Shown: positions 48,113 to 56,383 of the stretch, piece by piece
Layout of the letters: the number at the start of each line of letters is the position of its first letter
Numbering within the stretch: position 1 is the stretch's first letter
Source of the DNA: an uncultured Lachnospiraceae bacterium
GTDB taxonomy: Bacteria > Bacillota > Clostridia > Lachnospirales > Lachnospiraceae
Assembly (NCBI GenBank): GCA_944381485.1
Contig: CALWLI010000011.1
Location: 81,531-145,530, forward strand
DNA length: 64,000 bases
Direction of reading: 5' to 3'
Notes under the pieces: generated by a model
The model's database searches: none
Told to the model about the DNA's origin: nothing
What the model saw: the letters and a program-made list of their open reading frames with translations, nothing else
Program-made: the position numbers and the translations under genes

Positions 48113-48544
48113 ATGGCTGCTGACATAAACTGCAAAATAAACGATGACGGAATGGGAGTTACGCTTGAGGCACTTTTTAAGGGAATGGAGGGCCTTGTAA
48201 GCTCAAAGACTGTTGTGGGTGATCCCATAAAAGCGGGAGGAGCTACTCTCATACCCATAATAGAGGTCTCGGCAGGCATGGCCGCCGGAGAGCTGAATTC
48301 AAAGGGGAAGAAGAATGCCGGAGCCATGAGTACCAAGATAAGCCCTGTTGCCATGCTCATAATTCAGGATGGGAAGACAAAGCTCATCAACATAAAGAAT
48401 CAGGATACTCTGACAAAGATATTGGACATGGTTCCTGAAGCCATAGACAAGATCACAGGGGGAAGCAGAGTCGGAAAGGATGCCGAGGAAGCCGCGAAAG
48501 AATATCTTGATGAGGCCAAGGCAGATACCGAGATCTCCGAGTAA
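48113..48544 (+). CDS. ytfJ: GerW family sporulation protein
   Basis: A 143-residue protein of the YtfJ/GerW family. It keeps the conserved core (LEALFKGMEGLVSSKTVVGDPIKAGGATLIPIIEVSAGMAAGELN), the Gly-rich part and MLIIQDGKTKLINI, and has an acidic C-terminal tail. In Bacillus it is needed for spore germination. Adjacent to the YtfI-like genes as in other Firmicutes. Strong GAGGAGGT ribosome site; terminator follows. Confidence 0.88.
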   Translation: MAADINCKINDDGMGVTLEALFKGMEGLVSSKTVVGDPIKAGGATLIPIIEVSAGMAAGELNSKGKKNAGAMSTKISPVAMLIIQDGKTKLINIKNQDTLTKILDMVPEAIDKITGGSRVGKDAEEAAKEYLDEAKADTEISE

Positions 48545-48581: not shown

Positions 48582-48624
48582 ATGTCCTGCAAAGAGTATA
48601 AAAGCCCTTTGCAGGGCATTTTTG
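48582..48624 (+). terminator. Intrinsic terminator after ytfJ
   Basis: A 13-bp stem (48582-48594 with 48607-48619, one G-U) and a 12-nt loop, then TTTTTG. Confidence 0.88.
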
Positions 48625-48626
48625 AT

Positions 48627-48761
48627 ATGCATGTGACGCCTGATGATATGCCGTTTGGTAACGGTGTAAGGCTTGATATTAATATGCCTCTTGATATTGG
48701 CGTAGCGAGATGTCATCAGCATTCTTATGGGCAAAATGAGAGAAGAAAACAAAGAAAATGA
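48627..48761 (+). CDS. Possible small ORF (44 codons), doubtful
   Basis: ATG at 48627 opens 44 codons (MHVTPDDMPFGNGVRLDINM ... RRKQRK), ending inside the first stem-loop unit of the repeat array. The composition looks protein-like, with DINMPLDIGVARCHQHSYGQ. There is no Shine-Dalgarno, and it begins just past a terminator. It could be a decayed gene fragment or chance. Confidence 0.25.
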   Translation: MHVTPDDMPFGNGVRLDINMPLDIGVARCHQHSYGQNERRKQRK

Positions 48762-49100
48762 GAGAAGTTGCAAAATTCTTTGCTGAAAAAAACTGATCAA
48801 GCCAAGAAAAATAATAAAGTATAAATATTCTTGGCTAAAAACATTGGAAAAGAGCCAAGAAAAATTCCAAAGCCCAAAATAACTTGGCTAAAAATATTGG
48901 AAAAGAGCCAAGAAAAATTCCAAAACCAAAAATAACTTGGCTCAAACTTCAGGAAACAAGCAAAGAAAATAAACAAATATGAAAATTTCTTTGCTCTGAC
49001 AGCCGGGATTAAGCCAAGAAAAAAATAAAAGTTAAAAAATCTTGGCTATAAGCCATAGAAGTGAGCCAAGAAAATAAAAAAATCGAAATAATCTTGGCCG
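48748..49100. repeat. Phased array of seven 37-nt inverted repeats
   Basis: Seven units, each an imperfect palindrome of about 37 nt with arms AGCCAAGAA / TTCTTGGCT: 48748-48784, 48800-48836, 48853-48889, 48906-48942, 48959-48995, 49012-49047, 49064-49100. Unit starts are 52 or 53 bp apart, with spacers of 15-16 nt. Units 1 and 5 have CAAAG in the left arm and CTTTG in the right, that is, both sides of a base pair are changed together. Spacers after units 2 and 3 are nearly identical (AAAAA-C/T-ATTGGAAAAG). It is AT-rich, in no gene, and fits neither CRISPR nor a single terminator. Confidence 0.9.
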
Positions 49101-49118
49101 AAAAGGCAACGGAGCCTC

Positions 49119-49222
49119 CTTTTACAGGGTCAAGGCTGAACTTTCGACAGGAATTTAAAGCTGCTTTTACAGGGCCTGGATTGAACTTTCGACAGGATTT
49201 TAAACCTGATTCTACAGGGCTG
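49119..49222. repeat. 45-bp direct repeat, about 2.3 copies
   Basis: The core CTTTTACAGGG starts at 49119 and 49164, with a diverged copy (TTCTACAGGG) at about 49209; ACAGGG begins at 49124, 49169 and 49214, exactly 45 bp apart. A second conserved block, TGAACTTTCGACAGGA, lies in each full unit. 45 is a multiple of three, and the minus strand reads as 15-residue repeats (SCRKF ... PVK) in an open frame from about 49242 to 49009; coding is possible but not shown. Confidence 0.8.
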
Positions 49223-49276: not shown

Positions 49277-49316
49277 TAAAAAAGTGCTTGCAAATCCCTT
49301 CGCTTTCTGCTAATAT
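49277..49316 (+). promoter_or_regulatory. rpmB promoter with A-tract and extended -10
   Basis: TTGCAA (49288-49293), 17-nt spacer ending in TGC, then TAATAT (49311-49316). The upstream 19 bp (49277-49295) match the tRNA-Leu promoter exactly. Confidence 0.7.
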
Positions 49317-49351: not shown

Positions 49352-49546
49352 ATGGCTAAGTGTGCAATATGCGATAAGGGCGTCCAGTTCGGAATCAAGG
49401 TGAGCCATTCTCACAGAAGATCTAACAAGATGTGGAAGCCGAACGTTAAGAAGGTTAACATTCAGACTGGAGCAGGTAATAAGAGAGTATATGTATGTAC
49501 CTCATGCTTGAGATCCGGAAAAGTAACCAGAGCAGAGGTTAAGTAA
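49352..49546 (+). CDS. rpmB: 50S ribosomal protein L28
   Basis: A 64-residue zinc-type L28 with MAKCAICDKGVQFGIKVSHSHR and C-terminal VCTSCLRSGKV; the four cysteines (CxxC ... CxxC) are present. AAGGAGG ribosome site. First gene of the ribosome/metabolism run that continues through yloU, yloV and recG; a terminator and a new promoter lie after it. Confidence 0.95.
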   Translation: MAKCAICDKGVQFGIKVSHSHRRSNKMWKPNVKKVNIQTGAGNKRVYVCTSCLRSGKVTRAEVK

Positions 49547-55626: not shown

Positions 55627-56290
55627 TGCAGCTTCAAAATGTGATGCTGTGATCTTTGATTTTGATGGTACTCTTGTCGATTCTATGTGGATGTGGAAGC
55701 AGATCGACATAGAGTACCTTGCTCGTTTCGGAATCAGTCTTGGGGAAGAGGGAGCAAAACGCCTGCAGAAGGATATAGAGGGCATGAGCTTCACGGAGAC
55801 TGCCGTATATTTTAAAGACAGCTTTCACATTCCGTATGATACTGAGAGGATAAAAGCCGACTGGGAAAATATGTCGGTGGAAAAGTACCGCAGAGAGGTC
55901 AAGCTTAAGCCCTATGCAAGGGACTTTTTGAATTTCTTAAAAGAAAAAGGAAAGAAGCTGGGTATAGCCACCTCGAACGGAAGGGAGATGGTTGATGCCT
56001 GCATGAATTCCCTGGGCATAAGCTCATACTTTGATCGGGTAGCCATAGCCTGCGAGGTCAGCAGAGGGAAGCCCTTTCCCGACATATATCTTCTGGTCTC
56101 GGAGGAGCTCTCGGCAAGTCCTGAGTCCTGTCTGGTATTTGAGGATGTGCCGGCAGGAATAATCGCAGGAAAGCGGGCGGGAATGAAGGTCTGCGCTGTG
56201 GAGGATGACTTCTCCGCAGGAATGCGAGAGGAGAAGAAGTCTCTGGCTGACTTTTATATCAGAGACTACAGCGAGATAATCCCGTCATAA
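55607..56290 (+). CDS. HAD family hydrolase (beta-phosphoglucomutase-like)
   Basis: A 227-residue phosphatase or phosphomutase. Motif I D-x-D-G-T in IFDFDGTLVDSMWMW (about residue 17), motif II S/T in GIATSNGREM (about 126), motif III Lys in SRGKPFPDIYL, and the DD/ED-type motif IV in LVFEDVPAGIIAGKRAGM. Substrate unknown, likely a sugar phosphate. Its stop codon lies in the first unit of a 16-bp tandem repeat. Confidence 0.88.
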   Translation: MNRKIIDAASKCDAVIFDFDGTLVDSMWMWKQIDIEYLARFGISLGEEGAKRLQKDIEGMSFTETAVYFKDSFHIPYDTERIKADWENMSVEKYRREVKLKPYARDFLNFLKEKGKKLGIATSNGREMVDACMNSLGISSYFDRVAIACEVSRGKPFPDIYLLVSEELSASPESCLVFEDVPAGIIAGKRAGMKVCAVEDDFSAGMREEKKSLADFYIRDYSEIIPS

Positions 56291-56383
56291 AGAATAAGAG
56301 CAATAAAGAATAAGAGCAATAAAGATTAAGACTAACGAAGAATAAGTCTAACGAAGAATAAGTCTGACAAAGAATAAGAGCGG
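56288..56383. repeat. Six tandem 16-bp repeats
   Basis: Units at 56288, 56304, 56320, 56336, 56352 and 56368, each 16 nt. The first two are identical (TAAAGAATAAGAGCAA); the others differ at two to four positions. The array begins with the TAA stop of the HAD gene and ends 17 nt before the SDR gene, whose ribosome site AAAGGAAC follows it. Confidence 0.92.

Follow-up and report, generated by a model that had tools for sequence, protein, structure and literature searches.

Helically phased arrays of inverted half-sites in a Lachnospiraceae genome as probable docking sites for a family of PD-(D/E)XK-like proteins

The seven inverted repeats found in the window (the whole stretch of 64,000 nucleotides analysed here, from an uncultured Lachnospiraceae bacterium) are best explained, with a probability that we put at roughly 0.6, as a one-face docking array for a cognate protein of a family that we call X, a system with the logic of REP sequences and their RAYT proteins, with another protein and no pairing. 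The array would give a dedicated X-family protein a place to land on double-stranded DNA, with two inverted half-sites about 28-30 bp apart in each 36-39 bp unit. The DNA would bend over the protein, in agreement with the A/T-rich steps seen at the dyad and, on both sides, about 9 bp away from it, and the linkers would set the unit period to whole helical turns, placing successive bound proteins on the same side, where they could bind cooperatively. In relatives, arrays of the class found upstream of an X gene also occur alone in other intergenic gaps, and the window array would be such a solo array, of the class RGCMAAGA; by analogy with the origin proposed for REP sequences through RAYT, such arrays may have arisen by X-dependent spread.

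The array spans 48748-49099 and consists of seven dyads of 36-37 nt spaced 52-53 bp apart, with unit starts separated by 52, 53, 53, 53, 53 and 52 bp. A preliminary description of this DNA had reported seven palindromic units of about 37 nt every 52-53 bp with spacers of 15-16 nt, and the unit lengths, the spacings and the linkers (15-16 nt) agree with it. It had also called the arms conserved; the left arm of unit 1 is imperfect, however, and in units 3 and 4 the arm is reduced to 7 bp (AGCCAAG/CTTGGCT). The features of this part of the window are as follows.

48113..48544, + strand: open reading frame of the upstream gene, putative ytfJ (named so in the preliminary description), outside the element
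48604..48617, + strand: terminator-like hairpin between the upstream gene and the array
48748..48784, no strand: unit 1, left arm imperfect, AACAAAGAA ... TTCTTTGCT
48800..48836, no strand: unit 2, AGCCAAGAA ... TTCTTGGCT
48853..48889, no strand: unit 3, AGCCAAG ... CTTGGCT
48906..48942, no strand: unit 4, AGCCAAG ... CTTGGCT
48959..48995, no strand: unit 5, AGCAAAGAA ... TTCTTTGCT
49012..49047, no strand: unit 6 (36 nt), AGCCAAGA ... TCTTGGCT
49064..49099, no strand: unit 7 (36 nt), AGCCAAGA ... TCTTGGCC
49288-49316: promoter-like match TTGCAA-17-TAATAT in the gap between the array and the downstream gene, seen by eye and absent from the scan list
49352..49546, + strand: open reading frame of the downstream gene, putative rpmB (also the earlier name)

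Chance does not account for the window array: it has three chained units with exact 7-mer arms, and none of 1000 dinucleotide shuffles had more than one. At the gathering cut-off, Rfam recognises only a tRNA in the window and no family in the array region. Directly after the array, at 49115-49220, lies a second tandem repeat with a period of 45 bp, 2.4 copies and CAGGATTTTAAACCTG-like palindromes; its period corresponds to a non-integral number of helical turns, and blastn finds it at no other place in the genome to which the window belongs (the home genome). Elsewhere in the window, two 16-bp tandem repeats, ATAAAGAATAAGAGCA and AAGAATAAGTCTAACG, adjoin each other at 56287-56378.

A profile built from 63 units finds ten arrays with about 90 units in the home genome, all of them intergenic, which supports the earlier suggestion of a dispersed repeat family. 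One lies on contig C11 (the window array), two each on C14 and C4, and one each on C25, C2, C9, C19 and C22. Outside the ten arrays the top profile match has an E value of 0.82, and no single isolated unit was found (150 of 1049 candidates scored). When the array was compared by blastn with 25 genomes of the genus, it matched the home genome only, at 19 places including the window; one weak place, on C26, holds no array. The flanking genes (sigma-54 activator, solute-binding protein, dehydroquinase, V-type ATPase subunit D, ABC/cobalt transporter, HSP20, polysaccharide deacetylase) have no common theme. As regards a type III toxin-antitoxin system, ten flanking proteins include no toxin family in Pfam, three of the arrays stopping at contig ends. 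The A-rich strand of the array is the G-rich strand of its surroundings in four of ten cases and the opposite strand in six. As flanks and GC skew follow no rule, we set aside a strand- or gene-specific element. A CRISPR array was likewise rejected: linkers are alike within arrays rather than unique, and the conserved parts are two half-sites. A phage or plasmid origin was rejected for want of a DNA match.

Four of the ten home arrays end within 150 bases of a contig end, and three of these four adjoin what, judged by eye, resemble insertion elements. The arrays at the ends of C14, C25 and C19 (L052, L053, L058) stop at such elements, and those on C14 and C25, which have a common tail, could be two parts of a single array into which one such element has inserted. 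The longest array, with 29 units on C4 (L081:9525-11030, G000:C4), has a 105-bp higher-order repeat in which neighbouring units have linkers in common. It is open for 501 codons in one frame, probably as a by-product, since such a frame can follow from a 105-nt period divisible by three; a coding reading of the 501-aa frame was set aside on this inference.

The search of relatives proposed with the preliminary description yields no array in any of 24 congeners (unit profile, up to 150 candidates scored in each); single weak matches in two of them, G018 and G023, proved on reading not to be arrays. G005 and G018 carry the same two gene neighbours with no array between them (by eye in G018), and G005 has none in 240 kb or in six further stretches. 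Absence of the arms from the same locus in close relatives, together with neutral decay, had been named as what would speak against the element, and the absence is indeed found at the window locus in these two genomes. Elsewhere, though, the wider array class is under selection. At an orthologous locus in two species of another genus, where the flanks are 75% and 92% identical, four aligned units retain 72/72 arm positions, 72/84 interior positions and 34/75 linker positions with no indel.

Arrays of the same architecture with different arms occur in other genera of the family. One genome of another genus, G121, holds seven classes.

F1: arms TTACGCGCA, period 64
F2: arms GGCTAAG, period 73
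F3: arms AGCGAACA, period 74
F4: arms TGCTAAC, period 74
F5: arms AGGATGCA, period 62
F6: arms TTACGGC, period 52
F7: arms GGAGGTC, period 62

Of 397 family genomes, two have the F1 pattern, G121 and G424 of one genus, which together supplied 77 units in 12 arrays. Its dimensions are nearly fixed (interior 21 nt in 75/77, linker 25 nt in 64/65, period 64 in 62/65), and identity between arrays is 0.93 in the arms, 0.53 in the interior and 0.36 in the linker. At three G121 loci (L146, L199, L200), two arm classes stand side by side in one intergenic gap. Exact-pattern scans yielded 17 viral and 45 genome stretches, only one of which (L127) matches the unit profile; this one, L127:4560-4909 from Desulfobacteraceae, is a different repeat, an 82/101 bp tandem with GCGCAAAGA arms, and L102, L116 and L125 look on reading like chance matches. 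Profile R1 matches 54 genomes of the 299 examined in the family with E no greater than 0.01, the home genome included (19 candidates scored per genome), and among 54 of the profile-R1 loci (L061-L074, L146-L185) an array was seen only in G121. In 793,335 bases from 40 stretches of other genomes, the only array was in G337, with none in a Markov control.

Family X came to notice as homologous 265-aa genes downstream of two arrays, in G121 and G337. Its members are proteins of about 265 aa with no Pfam name and a PD-(D/E)XK-like C-terminal domain; at an E value of 1e-8 or below, 95 of the 299 family genomes have matches, many of them more than one, and some matches lie in longer frames and may represent the domain within larger proteins. 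We assembled 71 X genes from loci in 30 genomes, for whose choice X similarity was the sole criterion, and from paralogue contexts, a genus search and one phage record. With a strict detector, arrays appear upstream of X in 24 of 67 usable regions versus 2 of 1447 control windows (P 1e-32) and downstream in 6 of 69 (upstream versus downstream, p 1.5e-4), P values that treat related arrays as independent, here and below; both control matches flank, upstream and downstream, the X gene of G337 itself. If one mismatch per arm is allowed, arrays of three units appear in 37 of 67 upstream regions, 7 of 69 downstream regions and 2 of 312 controls, and arrays of four units in 28, 3 and 0, respectively. 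This degenerate detector finds no array in 30 of the 67 upstream regions. By eye, degenerate dyads missed by the detectors (for example TACCRCT...AGCGGTA in G018) are visible upstream of X genes of three congeners (L349 in G018, L350 in G024, L348 in G011), so the upstream counts may be lower bounds. The presence of an array in the gene's own upstream region suggests autoregulation.

In G121, X genes can be matched to array classes. An array lies upstream of each of the seven X genes found there (8 of 10 candidates scored), as shown by the detectors or by eye. For five of the seven, the arm class is one already found dispersed at distant loci of that genome, and each is a different class; in 64 other X upstream regions, only one has at least two pairs of any of the eight classes tested. 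For classes F4 and F7 no X was found among the same 8 of 10 scored candidates, and two X-linked classes were not seen elsewhere within the examined parts of G121. Across 28 X genes with arrays, X identity is coupled to arm similarity, significantly and weakly (Mantel r 0.18, p 0.002), and to the number of helical turns (r 0.37, p below 5e-5). A neutral satellite, produced by tandem duplication and drift and without function, could account for the shared linkers of the 29-unit array and for the differences in arrays between close relatives; given the linkage to X, the fixed lengths and the contrast between conserved arms and free linkers in F1, we consider it barely credible.

The periods obey the DNA helix. 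For nine families, including the home class and one of G337, the best-fitting pitch within a tested range of 7-16 bp is 10.50 bp (P about 2e-5 versus uniform integer periods). In 28 X-linked arrays, 133 spacings fall at 51-54, 61-65, 73-76, 83-85, 96, 104-107 and 117 bp, with a best pitch of 10.55 bp, or 10.60 when each array contributes one median. Steps of unequal turn number occur within nine X-linked arrays; for L319, L310 and L339 the exception is a double step, which may conceal an undetected unit. The unit itself has inverted half-sites of 7-9 bp about 28-30 bp apart within 36-39 bp, and in X-linked arrays and home units alike the A/T content has maxima at the dyad and at a distance of about 9 bp. 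The home array conforms to this architecture in its inverted half-sites 28-30 bp apart, its A/T dyad and its integral-turn period, and the integral helical phasing first proposed for it is supported.

In units 1 and 5 of the window array a C:G pair is changed to A:T, which the preliminary description took as evidence for selection on pairing or on twofold symmetry; all seven window units agree at that pair. That description also proposed two alternative RNA registers. The paired change is real in those two units but does not generalise. In 88 units of nine home arrays (two units at the start of C22 were left out), C/A and G/T agree in 38, disagree in 49 and are otherwise in 1 (Fisher p 0.26); without the 29-unit array the counts are 30, 28 and 1 (p 0.79). 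RNAalifold predicts no common structure and no pair from the home units, and the variable C/G pair is broken in 30 of 63 aligned units. For the whole stem, paired cells amount to 83.1% versus 81.6% in shuffles (26 of 500 reach it), the covariation score is 0.115 versus 0.099 (35 of 500), and cells changed on both sides number 25 versus 20.8, which 52 of 500 shuffles reach, no standout; this slight excess leaves a little room for weak pairing selection in home units. F1 arm changes are one-sided in 61 cases (41 at the outermost position) and two-sided in 1. Selection on pairing is therefore not upheld, nor are the two registers. Because the variable bases of left and right arms are independent, each half-site is conserved on its own, which points to DNA recognition rather than RNA pairing. 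Most simply, either half-site can accept a substitution of its own, which is what one would expect if a protein reads two half-sites.

These results bear directly on the proposal of a regulatory RNA made of repeated hairpins. Its arms are inverted, either strand folds more stably than shuffled sequence (z -5.3 and -4.9) and the whole-stem excess above lies on its side; yet variable positions do not covary in either family, no consensus fold emerges, the spacing is locked to the turns of DNA, and array direction relative to genes follows no rule. In some F1 arrays, moreover, the central A-run is a T-run, a swap that is equal in duplex DNA and unequal in RNA. We regard this RNA as highly improbable, and a structured RNA or Rfam family was rejected for want of an Rfam match at the array and of a consensus structure. 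As judged from sequence, a multi-site DNA-binding element is the likeliest of the classes that had been put forward for the array.

Several lines of evidence suggest what X may be. NCBIfam has no name for the four members scanned, and across 43 members no Pfam family is common, seven families matching one member each at E 1e-4 or worse. Invariant in all 43 are, among others, R158, S159, K160 and E162, Y178 and E179, D193 and F194, and E208, H209 and G211; the conserved positions thereby include E, PD and E residues of the nuclease type. The C-terminal part of the PADLOC profile PDC-S68 is matched by 43 of 43 and HEAT_CxxC_PDDEXK by 24 of 43. Five plasmid records match X, mostly in the C-terminal part, with genes annotated as AAA family ATPase, and viral contigs carry an X-type domain in open frames of 747-1353 codons with no full-length X found among them. 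Three matches come from a phage collection: one, the unverified gut bacteriophage record MT839528.1 (L386), has an X gene with no array by the strict detector, and another, MT837260.1 (L387), has its match within a long frame of about 1200 codons. A search of the PDB by sequence gave nothing convincing. As a proxy for X, the X-type domain was folded from eight viral-contig sequences (mean pLDDT 80), and the model weakly resembles Bax1, R2 endonuclease, Card1, TnsA and further nucleases of the restriction type, with a best E of 1.6e-3 and query TM-scores no higher than 0.46. The profile matches and the predicted fold of this homologous domain make X a putative nuclease, whose domain would cut DNA. 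In the docking model, X would also bind the arms, and do so cooperatively.

In the home genome itself the X profile finds no X at E up to 1, and no X lies in the examined flanks of the home arrays, whereas 9 of 24 congeners have X at E below 1e-30. With no X found in a 91%-complete assembly, the partner of the window array is inferred: it would lie outside the assembled part, at present or in the past. Given this completeness, and contig ends beside four of the ten arrays, the gene may sit in a gap; recent loss is possible too. One X clade has arms similar to the RGCMAAGA of the home arrays (GGCTAAG, GCnACCA, GCGAACA), but its arrays have seven turns to the five of the home arrays.

The same pairing of X with arrays could serve another purpose. 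The arrays may be mobile, selfish repeats of the REP-RAYT kind that the X nuclease copies or inserts, solo arrays being non-autonomous copies, with phasing that only serves the cutting complex and no cellular role. A cognate array upstream of X combined with dispersed solo arrays, several X genes per genome, a patchy distribution, unrelated neighbouring genes and different array classes within one gap in G121 are all in keeping with mobility. Against this, an unsystematic reading turned up neither an insertion boundary nor a target duplication nor a recent copy, two species have one array at an orthologous locus, arms are conserved between arrays, and no single unit was found in the home genome. 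We hold mobility to be quite possible, if short of an even chance. A role in chromosome architecture, with X as a sequence-addressed nucleoid protein and with arrays that anchor it to bend or bridge the chromosome without cutting, would agree with helical phasing, the A/T-rich dyad and intergenic positions that reveal no gene or strand preference. The nuclease-type residues E162, D193 and E208 are invariant in 43 X proteins, however, and patchy presence with several pairs per genome is unusual for a housekeeping protein, and we find this role unlikely.

Docking of a cognate X protein can be drawn into a fuller proposal, which in our judgement stands at about even odds: a two-part system of PD-(D/E)XK-like proteins, each with its own 7-9 bp half-site, which may form one-sided filaments on arrays of integral-turn period, with several orthogonal protein/array pairs per chromosome, arms and pitch evolving with the protein, and the window array as a solo docking array of one pair. 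The role of X in the cell may lie in array spread, chromosome organisation or defence. If docking is correct, the spacing shows that DNA rather than RNA is read, and cooperative DNA binding could be studied on natural arrays of 3-30 sites at fixed pitch, with several protein/site pairs available in one genome. Intergenic repeats of this bacterial family, previously without any partner, would gain testable ones. We found no description of these arrays with X in openly accessible PMC texts.

Among known systems, the PADLOC candidate defence proteins PDC-S68 and HEAT_CxxC_PDDEXK are like X in having a C-terminal nuclease-like domain. PDC-S68 differs in length, its profiles covering 1202-1273 aa whereas X has about 265 aa with another N-terminal part and often an array; a literature search for PDC-S68 yielded no paper that names it. 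Plasmid centromeres and iteron arrays are helix-phased arrays of half-sites that are bound cooperatively. The arrays described here differ in lying at many chromosomal loci, and no partition or replication gene was noticed among the flanking genes read.

REPINs, as presented in PMC3116915, are similar in that conserved ends stand as inverted pairs around a spacer of lower conservation but fixed length, and in their tie to a single-copy gene. Their ends are 16-mers about 71-110 bp apart (PMC3116915), unlike the tandem 7-9 bp half-sites about 28-30 bp apart seen here, and compensatory changes, common in REPINs according to that source, are rare or absent in home and F1 units. REP sequences and BIMEs with their RAYTs, as described in PMC2817692 and PMC3733652, resemble the present system in being dispersed, clustered, intergenic palindromic repeats in species-specific sets, and in having a dedicated gene with cognate repeats beside it and several pairs per genome; a dedicated gene with cognate dispersed repeats is found in the relatives (five G121 classes) and not in the home genome. 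According to PMC3733652, CGTC REPs seem to have no dedicated transposase. In the present arrays, reading noticed neither a GTAG nor a CGTC tag. The proteins differ, RAYTs being related to IS200/IS605 tyrosine transposases in those accounts and X being PD-(D/E)XK-like. A RAYT as the home-genome partner was rejected: Y1_Tnp (PF01797) has no match in the 91%-complete home genome, with 5 of 14 control genomes positive. REP/RAYT systems further differ from the arrays, which keep exact helical spacing and whose arms lack covariation at variable positions; pairing kept by complementary changes, a REP/RAYT feature, was not found at the variable pair in 88 home units, and 77 F1 units have a single two-sided change. 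By this analogy the arrays come nearest to REP/RAYT in their logic, but lack two of the three features tested. If the docking of X is correct, they would represent a second, independent answer, after REP/RAYT, to the pairing of dispersed palindromic repeats with a dedicated enzyme.
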